From an uncultured Arthrobacter sp. (GTDB taxonomy: Bacteria; Actinomycetota; Actinomycetes; Actinomycetales; Micrococcaceae): a DNA stretch of 42,028 bases. Shown here one piece after another: positions 1,896 through 9,655 of the stretch (the stretch's first letter is position 1; every line of letters starts with the position of its first letter). Where the stretch lies: contig NZ_CADCTE010000095.1 in assembly GCF_902805515.1 (NCBI RefSeq), positions 1 through 42,028 on the forward strand. The letters are read 5' to 3'. A program made the position numbers and the translations under genes. The notes under the pieces were generated by a model that was given only the letters and a program-made list of their open reading frames with translations, searched no databases and had not been told where the DNA came from.

Positions 1896-2365
1896 GGGCG
1901 CTCCTGGTGGGTAGGGTGGTGGGCCAAGTCTTTCATCCACGCGCGCGGGCCTGGAAATCGCAGGCGTCGAACCGCGGGCGTGGAAATCACTGGCCTGGAA
2001 TCACGGGCCCGGAATCGCTGGCCCGGATATCCCGGGCCAGTGAGCCCGGGCCGCGCGAGCCCGCGCCCGGTCCCGGGGTCCCGGTCCCGGAGGGCGGTCT
2101 CGAAACCCGGGACGCCGCCCGCATGAGGGCCCTCCGCGCGTGCGCCGCACCTTCCAGGTCCCGCGCGCCCGCCCTGCTATAGTCGGCGCAGGTGGCCACC
2201 GTCCGGCTCACCTGAGGGGCGGTCGTGGGCCCGGCTCGCGCTGCACCGATGCACAGCGATCAGCGAAGGTTCACCATGCAACCATGCTCCACGCCGCAGC
2301 GAAGGTTCCCCTCCTGATGTCCGGGCGCATCGGCGTTCGGCGCCGGCTGCAGGGGTCGGTGTGCC
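1896..2365. other. 470-bp intergenic region with degenerate GC-rich repeats
   Basis: No convincing gene. Bases 1952-2030 hold a degenerate array of about 14-15 bp units built on (c/t)GGAA(a)TC (copies at 1952, 1981, 1996, 2010 and a diverged one at 2024), followed to about 2115 by GC-rich low-complexity sequence rich in CCCGG and GGTCCC. Further on there is an extended -10-like site at 2176-2183 and a 12-bp direct repeat CAGCGAAGGTTC at 2261-2272 and 2297-2308 in the leader of the downstream LOV gene. Confidence 0.6.
2176..2183 (+). promoter_or_regulatory. Extended -10 promoter element upstream of the first LOV-GGDEF-EAL gene
   Basis: TGCTATAGT (2175-2183) contains an extended -10 TGn-TATAGT. 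No good -35 is visible at the expected distance. Use of this promoter would give a leader of about 175 nt before the ATG at 2366. Confidence 0.4.
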
Positions 2366-4804
2366 ATGGGCATCACTGAACTGACCGTCACCCTGTGGCA
2401 GGAGCGGCGGGTGCTTGAGGAACTGCTTGCGGCGACCGGCCAGGCGCTGGCACCGCCCCGGGACTCCGCCCAGGGCCCGGCGGAAGCACCGCGCGCCGAG
2501 TCCGACCTGCGCAAGGAACTCGGGCTGATCCGCCTGGCGCGGGATGTCGAGCTGGCCGCCGTCGCCCAGGAGTGGGGGCTCGGATCCGCGACAGGACTGG
2601 CGGGCCTCGCCGCCGGCGCGCCAACCGACTCCTGGCGCTGGGTCCTCGATTCCCACCATCAGGCGCTGACCGACCTCGAGGTGCGGCTGCGCGCCGGCCG
2701 CGCCGCGGAGGCAACCGGTACAACTCCCCCGGCCGGCGGTCCCGTCGGGGATGAACCGCCGCGCCCGGGCGGGGACGGCGACGACGGACCGGGCCCGCCC
2801 GCCCTGCCGGACTCACTGCTCGGCCACGCCCTGAACGCGGTCTCAGAGGGCTCCCTGATCACGGACGCCGCCCAGGACATCGTGTACGCCAACGCCGCCT
2901 TCACGGCCATCACGGGCTACACCTCCGAGGAACTTCTCGGGAAGAACTGCCGGATCCTCCAGGGCCCCGGTTCGGACCGCGTCACGCTTGCCGCCATGAG
3001 CAGCCGCCTTCAGCGGGGGGAGACCTTTCGGGGCAATATCCTCAACTACCGCAAGAACGGTTCACCGTTCTGGAACGCACTCACCGTTTCACCGCTGCGC
3101 GACGACGACGGCAGGATCACCCACTTCGTCAGCATCCAGCGTGACATCACCGCCCAGGTGGCACTGCAGGAGGAACTGCGCTTCCTCGCCCTTCACGACC
3201 CGCTGACCGGGCTGCCCAACCGCAGCGGCCTCGAACAGCGGCTGGGCGCCGCACCAGCCGCCACGGACGTGGCGCTTGGGGTGATTCGCTTCGACAATTT
3301 CCGCCACGTCAACGAGACGTTCGGCCGCGACGCCGGAGACGCCCTCCTGCGCGAGATGGCACAGAGGTTGAAGTCGAACCTTCGCACCACCGATTTCCTC
3401 GCCCGGATCGGCGGAGACGAGTTCGTTCTCCTGATCGCGGGCATCGACGACGCCGAGGCGCACCGGCAGATCGGCTCCGTCGCCGCTCGGCTCCACCGTG
3501 CCGTTGAAACTTCGGTGCCGCTCGGCGGAGGGAATTCGGTCGACGTCGGACTGAGCATGGGGCTGGCGCTGCACCGCGCCGGCCGCGACGGGTTTGGCGA
3601 CTCCCGGCGGCGGGCGGAGGCCGCCCTCTCCGATAGACCGGTCGAGGGAAGCCCCGGCCGGCAGTGGTGGCGCCTCGCCGAACCCGGCGATCCGGTACCG
3701 CACCCCGGTGATCCATCTCCGCACCCCGAGCCCGGCGCATCCGCAACCGTGCAGCCTCCGCAAAGCCCAGCGCCGCAGACGGGAGATCCAGCCCCCGGCC
3801 CGCGCGGCCCGGCGGGGACACTGTCACTGGTCCTGCAGCCCGTTGTGGACCTCCGGACGGGAGAAGTGGACCTCCTGGAGGCGCTCGCGCGGGTCAGCAT
3901 CGAAGGCCACCCTCCGATGGGACCGGCTGACTTCCTGCCGGCGCTGGCCCCGCGGGACGTTGACCAGCTCTTCCGGGACGCGCTCGAGCAGGCCCTGTCC
4001 CACCTCGCCCGCTGGGACCGCTCGGGGCGTGCCTTCCGGGTCAGCGTGAACCTCAGCCCCTCCACCCTGCTCGATCCGGAGTGTGCCGGGTGGGTCGCCT
4101 CTACCCTCGAACGGCACGGCATCGCGCCGGACCGGCTCGTCCTTGAACTTCTCGAAACCGGTGCGATCACCTCCCCGGTTCAGGTGGCCGCGCTGTCGAA
4201 CCTCCGGACCCTGGGCGTCTGCCTCGCCATGGACGACCTCGGGTCGGGCTACAGCAGTCTTCAGCGGTTGTCCGTGCTGCCTTTCAGCGCGGTGAAGATC
4301 GATGGCGCGCTGACGGCCCAGCTGAGGACACGGCCCGTGCGTACGCTGACGATCCTCGCAATGCTCGTCCAGATGGGCCGCGACCTTGACTGGGACGTCA
4401 TCATCGAAGGCCTTGAGGACGCTGCCCTGACCGAGGCTGCACGGATCCTCGCACCGCCCTTCGGACAGGGATACCATTTGGCCCCTCCCCTGGAACCGGG
4501 GGACGTCCCCGCCTGGGTTGAGGTCTTTGCCCCGCGCGGCGCCGACGGCGGGCTGGACACCTTCCTTGGCGCCCTCGCGTACACGTGGCAGTTCACCCGG
4601 CTGCGCTCGCCCCATCCCGGGCCACAGGACCAGTGCCCGCTCACGGCGTTCCTGGACGCGCACGCCGAGCCCGGGTCGCCGGCCTTTGACTGGCACGGCC
4701 TCCAGCACGGTCCGGCCGCGGACGCCCCGGAGCCTGGGGCGCGGCTTGTGGACTGGCTTGCGGACCGCAGTATCGAAGAATATGCACGGCTTCCTCTGAA
4801 TTAG
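2366..4804 (+). CDS. LOV-GGDEF-EAL cyclic-di-GMP signalling protein (degenerate GGDEF)
   Basis: 812 aa. Residues 1-110 are a helical N-terminal region of unknown role (faintly FlgN-like), followed by a Pro/Gly-rich linker. Residues 155-265 form a PAS domain with LOV hallmarks: GKNCRILQGPGSD with the photoreactive Cys at 195, Asn in LNYRKNG and FWN, and Gln in VSIQRD. Next is GGDEF (349-353) with an RxxD inhibitory site (RTTD 340-343). The metal-binding Asp of the usual D-x-D-x-F motif is Arg308, and the end of the domain is eroded. The EAL domain (485-720) keeps the catalytic set E505, VNLS 561, ELLE 594, DD 623-624, K644, E681 and Q701. A C-terminal Cys/His tail follows. Known: LOV domains sense blue light via FMN; EAL hydrolyses c-di-GMP. 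Inferred: a light-regulated phosphodiesterase whose GGDEF is regulatory. Confidence 0.88.
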   Translation: MGITELTVTLWQERRVLEELLAATGQALAPPRDSAQGPAEAPRAESDLRKELGLIRLARDVELAAVAQEWGLGSATGLAGLAAGAPTDSWRWVLDSHHQALTDLEVRLRAGRAAEATGTTPPAGGPVGDEPPRPGGDGDDGPGPPALPDSLLGHALNAVSEGSLITDAAQDIVYANAAFTAITGYTSEELLGKNCRILQGPGSDRVTLAAMSSRLQRGETFRGNILNYRKNGSPFWNALTVSPLRDDDGRITHFVSIQRDITAQVALQEELRFLALHDPLTGLPNRSGLEQRLGAAPAATDVALGVIRFDNFRHVNETFGRDAGDALLREMAQRLKSNLRTTDFLARIGGDEFVLLIAGIDDAEAHRQIGSVAARLHRAVETSVPLGGGNSVDVGLSMGLALHRAGRDGFGDSRRRAEAALSDRPVEGSPGRQWWRLAEPGDPVPHPGDPSPHPEPGASATVQPPQSPAPQTGDPAPGPRGPAGTLSLVLQPVVDLRTGEVDLLEALARVSIEGHPPMGPADFLPALAPRDVDQLFRDALEQALSHLARWDRSGRAFRVSVNLSPSTLLDPECAGWVASTLERHGIAPDRLVLELLETGAITSPVQVAALSNLRTLGVCLAMDDLGSGYSSLQRLSVLPFSAVKIDGALTAQLRTRPVRTLTILAMLVQMGRDLDWDVIIEGLEDAALTEAARILAPPFGQGYHLAPPLEPGDVPAWVEVFAPRGADGGLDTFLGALAYTWQFTRLRSPHPGPQDQCPLTAFLDAHAEPGSPAFDWHGLQHGPAADAPEPGARLVDWLADRSIEEYARLPLN

Positions 4805-4927
4805 CCGGGCCGGCTAAAGAGTTCGGCAGATTGGGGATGCAAGAAACGTTTTCATCCCTAAGATCAGGAGTGGAACGCGGGACCTTTTTCCGCGGCTCGT
4901 TGCCCAGTGCCCGCGGAAAGGGCCACC

Positions 4928-6445
4928 ATGGATCCCACTCTTATTCCAATTATCCTCATCGTCGCGGCTGTGCTTGTCCTCGCCGTCGTCGGCGTCATTC
5001 TTGCCCGCATGGCGCTCCATATTGCCAGCCCTGACCAGGCCCTGATTATCTCGTCGAAAGACAGCAAGGGCCAGCCCGACCCCGACAGCCAGCGTGTGGT
5101 CTTCGGGCGGATCTTCATCAATCCGTTCTCCCAGCGCGCCTACCCCATCTCCCTGGCCTCCCGCCAGGTCTCGCTCAAGATCGAGGGAATCTCGCAGAAC
5201 GGGATCAAACTGCACCTCACCGGGGTGGCGCAGGTCAAGGTGGGCGGCGACGCCGACGCCGTCCGCAAGGCGGCCCAACGGTTCCTCAACCAGCAGGAGG
5301 CCATTGACCACTACACCCAGGAAACCCTTTCCGGGTCGCTCCGCTCTATTGTGGGCACACTGACAGTCGAATCGATTATCAAAGACCGGGCCACCTTTGC
5401 AAAGAGCGTGAAGGAAGAAGCCGAACACTCAATGCACAATCAGGGTCTCGAAATCGACACTTTTCAGATCCAGTCTGTGGACGACGATTCAGGCTATTTG
5501 AAAAACCTTGGCCGCCCGGAGGCCGCACTGGCCGAGAAAAACGCTAAAATTGCGGAGGCCCGGTCGGTCCAGGAATCGGAGCAGGCCCGCGCAATCTCCG
5601 ACGAGCAGGTAGCCCTGGCGCACCAGCAGCTCATCATCAAGCGTGCTGAACTGAAGGAAGTTGCCGACGCCCGCCAGGCGCGGGCGGACGCGGCCGGGCC
5701 CCTCGCCGTGGCGGAACAGAACGAGCAGGTGATCATCCGCGAGCAGCAGGTCGCCCAACGGCGCGCCGAACTGCGCGAGCGCGAGCTCGACACGGAGGTC
5801 CGCAAGCCCGCGGACGCCGAGAAGTACAGGTTGATCCAGCAGGCCGATGCCAGGCTCGAGGAGCGGCGGCGGGCCTCGGAGGCGACCGAGATCGAGGCAC
5901 GGGTGGAACTGGCCAAGCGCAAGCTCAACGCCGAAGGCGACCGGGTTGCGGCGGAGGCAGACGCCGCCGCGAACACGGCACGGGGAACCGCCGAAGCGGC
6001 CGTGCAGGAGGCGCGCGGGCGCGCCGAGGCGGCAGTGATCCGTTCACGCGGCGAGGCGGAGGCGGAATCCACCGAGGCCCGGGGCAAGGCAGAGGCCGCC
6101 GGCATCGCGGCGCAGGCCGAAGCCTACGAGAAGTTCAACGAAGCGGCCGTGCTGAGCAAGGTCCTTGAGGTCCTGCCCGCGATGGCGCGGGAGGTCGCCG
6201 CTCCGCTTGCGGCGATCAAGACGATGACCGTTGTGTCCAACGACGGCGCCGGCCAGCTCAGCCGGGATGTGTCGACCGGCGTGCAGCAGACCACCCAGCT
6301 GATCAAGGACACCACCGGCCTCGATGTCATCACCCTGCTGGGCGACATCCTGAAGGGCGCGGGGTCGGCCCCGCGCGTCTCCGCGAACGGCGGCGCCGTG
6401 TCACCGCCGGCCCCAGGCGGATCCGCGGACGGCGGGCGGCCCTGA
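4928..6445 (+). CDS. floT: Flotillin-like SPFH-domain scaffold protein
   Basis: About 505 aa. One N-terminal membrane segment (residues 5-27: PIILIVAAVLVLAVVGVIL) is followed by an SPFH/PHB domain (about 30-200), then a long charged coiled coil with Glu-Ala-rich repeats (EAEAESTEARGKAEA) and a flexible Gly/Pro-rich end. This is the layout and length of bacterial flotillin (YuaG/FloT), which organises membrane microdomains and signalling complexes. The frame opens at a GTG (4907), but the ATG at 4928 has GGAAAGG seven bases upstream and directly precedes the membrane segment, so it is preferred. No NfeD partner gene is adjacent. It lies between two LOV-GGDEF-EAL genes, 123 bp after the first and convergent with the second. 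Confidence 0.88.
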   Translation: MDPTLIPIILIVAAVLVLAVVGVILARMALHIASPDQALIISSKDSKGQPDPDSQRVVFGRIFINPFSQRAYPISLASRQVSLKIEGISQNGIKLHLTGVAQVKVGGDADAVRKAAQRFLNQQEAIDHYTQETLSGSLRSIVGTLTVESIIKDRATFAKSVKEEAEHSMHNQGLEIDTFQIQSVDDDSGYLKNLGRPEAALAEKNAKIAEARSVQESEQARAISDEQVALAHQQLIIKRAELKEVADARQARADAAGPLAVAEQNEQVIIREQQVAQRRAELRERELDTEVRKPADAEKYRLIQQADARLEERRRASEATEIEARVELAKRKLNAEGDRVAAEADAAANTARGTAEAAVQEARGRAEAAVIRSRGEAEAESTEARGKAEAAGIAAQAEAYEKFNEAAVLSKVLEVLPAMAREVAAPLAAIKTMTVVSNDGAGQLSRDVSTGVQQTTQLIKDTTGLDVITLLGDILKGAGSAPRVSANGGAVSPPAPGGSADGGRP

Positions 6446-6450
6446 CCTTT

Positions 6451-6485
6451 CGGCACCCCGTCGCCTGCCCGGCGGCGGGGTGCCG
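6451..6485. terminator. Strong hairpin between convergent flotillin and LOV genes
   Basis: CGGCACCCCGTCGCC (6451-6465) pairs with GGCGGCGGGGTGCCG (6471-6485) over 15 bp with one G-T wobble and a 5-nt loop. It starts six bases after the flotillin stop. No T-tract follows on either side, as is common in high-GC actinobacteria. Confidence 0.7.
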
Positions 6486-6541
6486 CCCGCACCGGCCCCG
6501 GGTGTTCAGGCGCCCGGGCCCCAGACCTCGGACCGCACACG

Positions 6542-6632
6542 CTCAGGCCTCAGGCCTCAGGCGTTCGGGGCTCAGGGCTTCGAGACTCGGGCCCCGAGCC
6601 GCTCGGGCGTTGCGACCTGCACAGGCTCAGGC
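6542..6632. repeat. CTCAGGC short tandem repeats
   Basis: Three perfect tandem copies of the 7-mer CTCAGGC (6542-6562) lead into a degenerate stretch of CTCGGG/CTCAGG units. A further exact copy at 6626-6632 overlaps the stop codon of the minus-strand LOV gene. Confidence 0.6.
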
Positions 6633-8702
6633 CAGCAGTTCCAGCCGCGGCCCGGCCGGCTCGGCGGTCGTGCGGATCTCGCGCACCAGCCAGTCCACGA
6701 GGAGCCGTCCGGCGCCGGCGTGTGCCGCCCGTGGATCATGCTGCTGGATGTGCCATCGGTCCACGTCGGCGCTGCTGCCGCGAGAGGCAAGGAATCGACT
6801 CAGGGGGCATTCGGCCAGGGCGCGGGGGTGGGGCGAACCCAGTCGGGCGAACTGCCAGTGGTAGGCCAACGCCCCAAGGCACGTGCGGAGCGAACCGTTG
6901 CGCGCCGGCAGGCGGAAGTGCTCGACCCACGCCGCGGCGTCCTGGGGTGCCAGCGGGGGGCTGAAGTGGAAGCCCTGACCCAGAGGCGCTCCGAGGACCG
7001 CCACCGCCTCGGCAATCCCCTCGTCCTCGATCCCTTCGATCACGACGTTCATGCCGAAATCCCTGCCCATCTGGATCAGGGTCGCGATCAGGCTGAGCGT
7101 CTCGGGCGGCTTGGTGCGGATGTCCGCGAGCAGATCGCGGTCGAGCTTGATGGCGTTGAACGGCAGCGACGACAGCCGCTTGAGGCTGCTGTATCCCGCG
7201 CCGAGGTCGTCCATGGCGAGGCCGACCCCCAGCCGGACCAGTTGGCTGAGGGCCTCCCGCTGGATGTCCCACTCAAGGGTCTGCGATTCGAGCAGTTCGA
7301 GGCCGAGCCGGTGGGGCGCGATTCCATGGCGGGTCAGGGCGCTGCCGATCAGGGCGGGTGAGGCCGGATCGAGAAGGGTGGTGGGCGGCAGGTTGACCGA
7401 CACGCTGTAGTTCAGCCCCTGCCGGTCCCACTCGGCCAGTTGCGCAAGGGACTGCTCAAGGACCGTGGAGAAGAGGTGGTCCAGGTCGAAGGTGCCCAGG
7501 TCCTTGACGAACCCGGCGGGCTCCAGCACCGTCCCGTTGGGAAGGGTCAGGCGGGCCAGGGCCTCGAACAGGTGCACCGAGCCGTCCCGCAGGTCGATGA
7601 CGGGCTGAAGGCAGATGGACAGTCCTCCACCGTAGAGGGCATCGCGCCGCCGCTCGCGGGCCCACGCGGCCTCCTCCCCGGCCGTATCGGCGGGATCCAC
7701 CCCCTCTGCGGCGCCGGCGGAGGCGGCGCCTGCAGCACCGGCGAAGGCCCCGGCCGGTGCCGGGGAGACCTCGGCGGAAAGCTCCCACCATCGGCGCCGC
7801 CCGTGTTTGCGGGTCTTCACCTCATAGAGGGCCTCATCGGCGCTCTTGAGCAGGGAAGCGGTGTCGAAGCCGTCTTCTGGAAACAGGGCGAGCCCCATGC
7901 TCATCCCGATGGTCACCCTGCGCCCATCGATGCTGAAGGGCACCTCGACGGCGGAGGACAGCCGCTCCAGGACCCGGGTGAGGCCCGCTTCCGGAGCGCC
8001 GCGGCTGATACCGCTGAGGATCAGGACGAACTCGTCCCCGCCCATCCGGCCGAGGAAATCCTCATCGCGCAGCTGCGCCTGGATCCGCGCCGCCCACTCC
8101 TTGAGCAGCAGGTCCCCCGCCTCGTGCCCGAAGGTGTTGTTCACGACGCGGAAGTCGTCGAGATCGATCATGCCCACGGCCGCAGTGATTTCGGACCGGG
8201 GCCCGCCCGCCAGAATGTCCGCGAGGTGGTTGTTCATCGCCAGGCGGTTCGGCAATCCGGTGACGGGATCGTGGAGCGCCTGGAAGCGGAGCTGTTCATG
8301 GAGCGCCATGCGGGTGTTGATGTCGCGCTGGACACTCACGAAGTGGGTGAGCTCCCCCGACTCGGAGGTCAGGGGCGTGATACTGAGCATGTTCCAGAAC
8401 GCCGACCCGTCCTTCCGGTAGTTGAGGATTTCACCGCGGAAGGGCTCACCGGCGTCGAGTGCAAGCCGGATGGCGGCCCGGGTCTCGACGTCGGTGCCCG
8501 GCCCCTGAAGCATCCGGCAGTTCCGCCCCAGCACCTCATCGGCCGTGTACCCGGTGATGGCAGTGAAGGACTCCGAGACATGCTGAATATGCTCCGAAGC
8601 ATCGGTGATCAAGGAAATTTCCGAGGTCGCGGCCATCGCCTTGATGAACAGCTCCTCCGGCAGTTCGCCGCCGCCGAAACGCGGCCCATGGCGTAGATGC
8701 AT
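6627..8702 (-). CDS. LOV-GGDEF-EAL cyclic-di-GMP signalling protein (all catalytic motifs intact)
   Basis: 691 aa. The LOV domain is close to the N-terminus (residues 20-135): GRNCRMLQGPGTD with photoreactive Cys62, Asn in LNYRKDG and FWN, Gln in VSVQRD. GGDEF (221-225) has an RxxD site (RDED 212-215), metal Asp180 in MIDLDDF, and an intact C-terminal helix (LLKSADEALYEVK). An Ala/Gly-rich linker leads to EAL (E380; VNL 436; ELLE 469; DD 498-499; E556; Q576). The tail repeats the Cys/His pattern of its paralogue: H625, C632, H651, H655. It should be able both to make and break c-di-GMP, with blue light as the likely input. It is a diverged duplicate of the gene at 2366, without the N-terminal helical region. 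The ATG at 8702 has GGGGGA eight bases upstream. Confidence 0.9.
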   Translation of the reverse strand: MHLRHGPRFGGGELPEELFIKAMAATSEISLITDASEHIQHVSESFTAITGYTADEVLGRNCRMLQGPGTDVETRAAIRLALDAGEPFRGEILNYRKDGSAFWNMLSITPLTSESGELTHFVSVQRDINTRMALHEQLRFQALHDPVTGLPNRLAMNNHLADILAGGPRSEITAAVGMIDLDDFRVVNNTFGHEAGDLLLKEWAARIQAQLRDEDFLGRMGGDEFVLILSGISRGAPEAGLTRVLERLSSAVEVPFSIDGRRVTIGMSMGLALFPEDGFDTASLLKSADEALYEVKTRKHGRRRWWELSAEVSPAPAGAFAGAAGAASAGAAEGVDPADTAGEEAAWARERRRDALYGGGLSICLQPVIDLRDGSVHLFEALARLTLPNGTVLEPAGFVKDLGTFDLDHLFSTVLEQSLAQLAEWDRQGLNYSVSVNLPPTTLLDPASPALIGSALTRHGIAPHRLGLELLESQTLEWDIQREALSQLVRLGVGLAMDDLGAGYSSLKRLSSLPFNAIKLDRDLLADIRTKPPETLSLIATLIQMGRDFGMNVVIEGIEDEGIAEAVAVLGAPLGQGFHFSPPLAPQDAAAWVEHFRLPARNGSLRTCLGALAYHWQFARLGSPHPRALAECPLSRFLASRGSSADVDRWHIQQHDPRAAHAGAGRLLVDWLVREIRTTAEPAGPRLELLA

Positions 8703-8927: not shown

Positions 8928-9017
8928 ATGGGATCCAACCTCGAAATGTCCGGAGGACAGCTGGTGCAGCAGGTCCGCCCACCGGGCATCCCGCCCGGCC
9001 CCAGGGAGCCGGCATGA
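8928..9017 (+). CDS. 29-codon leader ORF coupled to the TetR gene
   Basis: ATG at 8928 has a good ribosome-binding site (GAAGGAAGGG, 8912-8921, seven bases away). The ORF encodes MGSNLEMSGGQLVQQVRPPG... (29 aa, no hydrophobic segment) and ends with TGA at 9015-9017, overlapping the ATG of the TetR gene as ATGA. The TetR gene has no comparable site of its own, so its translation is probably coupled to this ORF. The peptide itself is not recognised; it may only serve coupling. Confidence 0.5.
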   Translation: MGSNLEMSGGQLVQQVRPPGIPPGPREPA

Positions 9018-9655
9018 TCCAGCAGCGGGCACGGGCGACCCGCGAGTCCATCCTCGCCGGGGCCGCTGCGGTCTTCGAAAAAGAAGGGTATGGGATGGCC
9101 TCACTCGCGCGTGTCGCGGAGGAGGCCTCGGTGACCAAGGGCGCGCTGTACTTCCACTTCCGTTCCAAGGACGAACTGGCGCGGGCTGTCATTGCGGCCC
9201 AGCATGCCCGTGGGATGGAGCGCTCGGCCGCCATTATTGCTGAGGGCCGCCCGCCGCTTGAGTCGATGATCCTCATCATTCGAGGCTTCGGGCAGGACAG
9301 CCTCAAGGAGCCGATCGTCCGCGCCGGAATCCGCCTGACCTTCGAGGCATCGGCTTTCGGCCAGGATGTGGCGGGGCCCTACCTGCACTGGACCGAGGCC
9401 CTGGAGTCGATGACCCGCGCAGCGCGGGATGAGGGCTGGCTGCATGCGGAGGTCGACCCGGGGTCCTTTGCCCGGCTTCTGGTGGCCTCGGTCGCAGGCA
9501 TTCAGATGGTCTCCAGCATCCTCGCCGGGCGCCGGGACCTCATGGAGCGTATCGAGGAAATGTGGGCGGCCTTCCTCCCCGGCATCCTCGCCCAGGAGCA
9601 TCAGCAGGAGATCGGGCGGCTCGTTGGACTCGTCCGCGGAACGCCGGAGGAGTGA
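9014..9655 (+). CDS. TetR-family regulator resembling gamma-butyrolactone receptors (ScbR/ArpA type)
   Basis: 213 aa, the usual size for the family. The N-terminal HTH (about residues 28-60: ARVAEEASVTKGALYFHFRSK) matches the VTKGALYFHF signature of ScbR/ArpA receptors. The ligand half shows further family features: RAGIRLT (103-109), a Trp at 126 (YLHWTEAL) where CprB/ArpA place their essential ligand-pocket Trp, and MWAAFLP near the C-terminus. Known: these proteins repress antibiotic and autoregulator genes until a butyrolactone binds. No afsA-type synthase is in the window. Translation is coupled to the 29-codon ORF upstream. Its target is not known; the neighbouring LOV gene and its own promoter are candidates. 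Confidence 0.75.
   Translation: MIQQRARATRESILAGAAAVFEKEGYGMASLARVAEEASVTKGALYFHFRSKDELARAVIAAQHARGMERSAAIIAEGRPPLESMILIIRGFGQDSLKEPIVRAGIRLTFEASAFGQDVAGPYLHWTEALESMTRAARDEGWLHAEVDPGSFARLLVASVAGIQMVSSILAGRRDLMERIEEMWAAFLPGILAQEHQQEIGRLVGLVRGTPEE

Follow-up and report, generated by a model that had tools for sequence, protein, structure and literature searches.

Two predicted LOV-GGDEF-EAL photoreceptors, one with a FlgN-like domain, flank an apparently relocated flotillin gene in an Arthrobacter clade

The window analysed here, a stretch of 42,028 nucleotides from an uncultured Arthrobacter sp., encodes two diverged LOV-GGDEF-EAL proteins, LOV-A and LOV-B, which we read as photoreceptors in which light most likely raises the hydrolysis of c-di-GMP. 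LOV-A would carry a FlgN-derived domain for dimerisation or docking, and the flotillin gene between the two would be a bystander; we put the probability of this reading as a whole at about 0.62. LOV-GGDEF-EAL proteins are a well-known kind, and what is new here is the FlgN-LOV-GGDEF-EAL fusion of one clade, together with an unclassified C-terminal domain. An earlier example is the blue-light-inducible phosphodiesterase of Synechococcus elongatus (2010), cited in PMC10396304. The proteins of the window resemble bacterial LOV-GGDEF-EAL photoreceptors in their domain order and in a 21-residue linker, but both differ from them by a C-terminal His-Cys-His-His domain, and LOV-A differs also by its FlgN-like N-terminus.

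LOV-A is encoded on the forward strand at 2366-4804 (an ORF of 812 aa, with FlgN-like, LOV, GGDEF, EAL and C-terminal domains in that order), the flotillin on the forward strand at 4928-6445 (505 aa), and LOV-B on the reverse strand at 6627-8702 (691 aa; LOV, GGDEF, EAL and C-terminal domains). The flotillin ORF is open from 4907, which would give 512 aa, but the start is probably the ATG at 4928, since the ORF of A. crusticola begins there. Pfam places PAS_9 at residues 161-263, GGDEF at 275-422 and EAL at 484-708 of LOV-A, and the same three domains at residues 30-129, 142-300 and 350-583 of LOV-B, all above the cut-off. The middle gene is also above the Pfam cut-offs, for Band_7 (SPFH/Band 7; 81.7 bits) and Flot (37.9 bits); it has these two domains in common with bacterial flotillins (FloT) but differs from them in falling below the NCBIfam FloT equivalog cut-off (216.8 vs 700 bits). 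By these ORFs and domain matches, the arrangement described in an earlier, sequence-only reading of this DNA, LOV-GGDEF-EAL proteins on either side of a flotillin, is present. The order LOV-B, flotillin, LOV-A recurs in two more genomes, those of Arthrobacter sp. MSA 4-2 (G171) and A. crusticola SLN-3 (G154), so the trio is not an artefact of assembly. Two parts of the proteins had been overlooked in that reading: about 150 extra N-terminal residues in LOV-A, and the C-terminal domain that LOV-A and LOV-B share.

The two LOV proteins had also been called duplicates. They are homologous, 48-50% identical and placed on separate branches of the tree, and on these two grounds we reject a recent tandem duplication. 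When 29 proteins are placed on a tree, all three LOV-A sequences group together, apart from LOV-B; their stem measures 1.33 changes per site, and that of the LOV-B clade 0.3. Because the LOV-A stem is so long and stands apart from LOV-B, the two look like old, diverged paralogues; the sister group of LOV-A is unsure, because LOV-A meets another long branch on the tree. The dN/dS ratio is 0.23-0.29 for LOV-A, 0.12-0.18 for its first 110 codons, and 0.09-0.11 for LOV-B, values which indicate that LOV-A evolves faster yet is kept as a protein, N-terminus included. LOV-A is a clade-specific, fast-evolved paralogue under purifying selection; LOV-B, of the ordinary type, has counterparts in roughly half of the genus.

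The LOV domain of LOV-A (2846-3154, forward strand) matches PAS_9 at 90.8 bits, and searches of the PDB group the PAS domain of the LOV proteins with LOV photoreceptors, among others. The LOV hallmark residues noted earlier are all present in both proteins: Cys195 in LOV-A and Cys62 in LOV-B, which we take to form the photoadduct, Asn227/94 and Asn237/104, presumably flavin-binding, and Gln258/125. The role of this Gln, like those of the GGDEF and I-site positions and of the metal and catalytic positions of the EAL domain, is likewise our assignment from the family literature. We followed these positions through an alignment (A1) of 28 rows that includes both window proteins and omits four of 32 rows (a fragment, a truncated sequence, one whose C-terminus is broken and one in which a series of residues is unread). 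Of the positions checked for photochemistry, GGDEF, I-site and EAL, most do not vary across the 28 rows; the second LOV Asn is variable (18 of 28) and the Gln is found in 27. At the level of sequence, two blue-light-regulated c-di-GMP enzymes are supported. Blue light would lead to an FMN-cysteinyl adduct in the LOV domain, and the signal would pass through the linker to the GGDEF-EAL pair, where hydrolysis of c-di-GMP by the EAL domain would most likely be raised. The AlphaFold model of LOV-A (pLDDT 76.5, pTM 0.60) finds its best fold matches in PA0861 PAS-GGDEF-EAL, DosP and PA0575, which suggests a likeness of predicted fold to PA0861 and DosP; to our knowledge, these two differ from LOV-A in having neither a photoactive LOV domain nor a FlgN-like domain. 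The linker between LOV and GGDEF, counted as in PMC10396304, is 21 residues long in 27 of the 28 rows, the 28th row having been missed by the pattern used, and 21 residues is the length given for earlier LOV-GGDEF-EAL proteins in that paper.

Both LOV proteins end in some 80-100 residues of predicted helices, at 4511-4801 (forward strand) in LOV-A and 6630-6932 (reverse strand) in LOV-B. Four residues of this domain, His750, Cys757, His777 and His781 in LOV-A numbering, are invariant in all 28 rows of A1, and they align with His625, Cys632, His651 and His655 of LOV-B. The CZB zinc-binding pattern consists of three His and one Cys, with the last two His four apart, and the three conserved His and one Cys of the C-terminal domain make up a CZB-like pattern of residues. 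CZB was not among the Pfam matches at E 10 of 24 members (the 28 rows of A1 minus near-duplicates and one over-long row), and the model of the domain (pLDDT 76.6) had no match better than E 2.7 among PDB folds. Identity with the CZB zinc domain is therefore unsupported by family and fold searches, although the domain may still bind metal. Weak matches to isocitrate lyase (best E 0.051 in Pfam and 0.18 in the PDB) are taken as chance. A profile of the C-terminal domain, searched against 396 genomes across the phylum, matched the window genome alone, in a sample that includes few genomes of its own family, the source of the A1 relatives. We regard the domain as unclassified; to date it has been observed solely in LOV-GGDEF-EAL proteins of this one bacterial family.

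Of the roughly 150 extra residues that precede the LOV domain in LOV-A, residues 1-116 (2366-2713, forward strand) are FlgN-like, and sequence comparison identifies them as homologues of the chaperone for flagellar hook proteins, FlgN. We used a profile built from 22 FlgN-like sequences of the genus, including one that falls short of the Pfam cut-off. Against it, the full-length LOV-A proteins of the three genomes score 38.4-40.1 bits (E 8.5e-11 to 2.8e-10 for 5000 proteins), with the LOV-A of the window at 38.4; the best of 1000 shuffled LOV-A N-termini reaches 12.1 bits, and the remaining 634 of 637 called proteins all score at most 6.0. BLASTP aligns the N-terminus with the genome's own FlgN (L156) at 35% identity over 120 columns, hhalign gives 97.8%, and both proteins begin with M-G-I-x-E-L. 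The Pfam FlgN model (PF05130) gives no match to LOV-A at E 10, and in the window genome it matches at contig C58 only. In the structural model, the FlgN-like part is built as helices at residues 4-26, 40-69, 78-83 and 88-117, with low confidence at 26-38. A joint profile (A2) that includes the LOV-A rows has matches in 98 of 295 genomes of the family; among the matches listed, frames of at least 800 residues are the three LOV-A genes only and the next longest has 527, in a search that scored part of the first-look candidates of each genome, so that a fusion could be missed. Against the PDB, the matches of A2 include no FlgN entry, and the best of them, a vesicle-fusing ATPase at E 0.0042, is taken as chance. 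We found no FlgN-GGDEF fusion described in the open-access papers searched.

LOV-A has gained a helical domain derived from FlgN, which would probably serve as an added module for dimerisation or docking and may dock at the flagellar export or hook machinery. The LOV-A copy is homologous to the FlgN export chaperone of its own genome but differs from that chaperone family (PF05130) in being fused to a signalling enzyme, in having lost the C-terminal segment and in having no Pfam match; in alignment A2 its middle helix is also degenerate, and the FlgN gene of the window genome lies on a contig other than that of LOV-A. Apart from the fusion, these differences favour the view that the domain is a helical cap or dimeriser put to new use, and that it has no partner in the flagellum. 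We give this serious candidate slightly less than an even chance; against it, no variation is seen at 23 columns when the three LOV-A are compared with 13 of the 22 FlgN sequences, and purifying selection acts on the FlgN-like domain. By sequence reading, the FlgN gene stands between flagellin and FlgK genes, so a flagellar system seems to be present in the organism. A fuller flagellar role, in which the FlgN domain would bring LOV-A to the export or hook machinery so that light alters c-di-GMP at the flagellum, or in which LOV-A would compete with FlgN for its clients, strikes us as unlikely. The direction of the enzymatic output has to be weighed as well, since both GGDEF motifs are intact and a cyclase-dominant output is conceivable, with light mainly activating synthesis by GGDEF and the EAL domain acting as a brake. 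The GGDEF motif is found in 28 of 28 rows of A1, the RxxD I-site keeps its Arg in 24 and its Asp in 27, with both residues in LOV-A and LOV-B, and short-linker LOV-GGDEF cyclases are activated about 15-fold by light according to PMC10396304. We nevertheless find a mainly synthetic output doubtful. The twelve EAL positions checked (E, R, N, E, E, D, D, K, D, E, E, Q) are all present in LOV-A and LOV-B, with eleven invariant across the 28 rows and the R in 27; the GGDEF match of LOV-A is weaker than that of LOV-B (98.8 vs 129.4 bits) and ends before the end of the profile; and according to the same paper, earlier LOV-GGDEF constructs cut from LOV-GGDEF-EAL proteins with the 21-residue linker show no light-regulated synthesis, and light is suggested to act on the EAL domain. 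LOV-A and LOV-B are probably mainly phosphodiesterases.

Where these enzymes would act is the subject of a proposal of the sequence-only reading, a light, c-di-GMP and membrane-microdomain module, in which the flotillin would scaffold both LOV-GGDEF-EAL proteins and blue light would alter c-di-GMP locally at membrane microdomains. The adjacent genes are retained in three genomes, the apparent move of the flotillin to the LOV site could reflect selection, and LOV-A and flotillin may be co-transcribed, since they lie on a common strand with 123 bases and no terminator-like site found between them. The distribution of the genes points the other way. Among 38 genomes of the genus (matches counted at E 1e-60), LOV-GGDEF-EAL is found in 18, flotillin in 36 and both in 17, and flotillin occurs in 19 of the 20 genomes that lack the LOV gene. 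The trio of LOV-B, flotillin and LOV-A stands together in 3 of the 38, namely the window genome, G171 and G154, which form one close clade; the proposal had been tied beforehand to conservation of the neighbourhood in related genomes, and elsewhere the trio is not kept. The other 15 of the 18 LOV-bearing genomes have no flotillin found beside their LOV genes: the two genes are on different contigs in 13 and hundreds of kilobases apart on one contig in G172, and in G155 no flotillin was found. A tblastn search with the window flotillin (E 1e-10) covered the surroundings of the LOV genes in these 15 genomes (19 stretches, each about 9-20 kb long) and six further LOV stretches from the wider family; it found no flotillin there, but the same query recovers flotillin in 13 of 13 stretches taken around flotillins. 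In a sample of 149 genomes from the wider family, the LOV gene is found in 6 (E 1e-60) and flotillin in 45 (E 1e-30). Even within the three trio genomes, most of the surrounding genes are also in common order, so the trio is retained no better than its surroundings. LOV-A and LOV-B have no membrane-like stretch, with hydropathy maxima over 19 residues of 1.21 and 1.09, against 3.43 for the flotillin. Scaffolding of the two enzymes by the flotillin is, in our judgement, highly improbable, and as a conserved system the module is rejected, because the grouping is rare, flotillin occurs independently of LOV genes and the gene has apparently been relocated. No LOV-flotillin or flotillin/c-di-GMP system was found described in titles and abstract openings of the open-access papers searched.

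The history of the flotillin gene is best seen from its position in relatives. In several of them, it follows a penicillin-binding-protein-like gene (c12) and has a small YccF-like gene (c19) and a DEAD-box-like gene (c11) downstream, directly in some and after one or two further genes in others (the names of c12, c19 and c11 come from sequence reading); further relatives have flotillin at other sites (L119-L123, L127). In the window genome, G154 and G171, the gap between c12 and its neighbour c19 is too small to hold a flotillin, tblastn finds no flotillin in stretches of 12-20 kb around c12, and there is a single flotillin match in each genome. Flotillin is absent from the c12 site that it holds in relatives, and each of the three genomes has one match only; this is most simply read as a move of the gene within this clade. 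The flotillin appears to have been relocated to the LOV site, and we regard it there as a relocated bystander. The commonest neighbours of LOV genes are a permease-like gene (c5, 8 loci) and a catalase-like gene (c38, 3 loci), again named from sequence reading; c5 adjoins LOV-GGDEF-EAL in the loci of relatives L091 and L096-L102, and it is a better conserved neighbour than flotillin.

The surroundings of the LOV genes have further features. A leader 5' of LOV-A (2182-2319, forward strand) is strongly conserved, with 136/138 and 133/138 bases identical in two sister genomes from which LOV-A itself differs at synonymous sites by 0.16 and 0.33, and it includes a possible ORF of 22 residues. A riboswitch at this place was considered and rejected, since the leader has no Rfam match over the gathering score in the window and its folding is not unusual (z 1.19); one Rfam match elsewhere, at E 0.71, is chance-like. 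The leader of LOV-B is likewise well conserved. Divergent to LOV-B is a TetR-family gene (9014-9655) that scores above the NCBIfam cut-off for ScbR (butyrolactone-type) autoregulator-binding factors; it is present in all three trio genomes and could regulate LOV-B. In the ORF at 3-602, at the left end of the contig, sigma-70 regions 2 and 4 are combined with the latter half of an ArsR helix-turn-helix; since the two sister genomes carry other genes beside the glycosyltransferase here, either a misassembly or a fusion by deletion may have produced this ORF. The window genome (G000) has three further GGDEF loci (L165, L166 and L167), two of which, one of these broken off, have EAL-like sequence by sequence reading, and no PilZ receptor was found in this genome, which is 91% complete.

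The tempting link between flotillin and the LOV proteins is probably the product of a recent gene relocation. Even without docking at the flagellum, the N-terminus of LOV-A documents how a signalling enzyme has taken up a chaperone domain. If the FlgN-derived part does dock there, LOV-A would be a natural design for the local control of c-di-GMP, and in an actinobacterium flagellar assembly would be tied directly and physically to a photoreceptor and a second-messenger enzyme.
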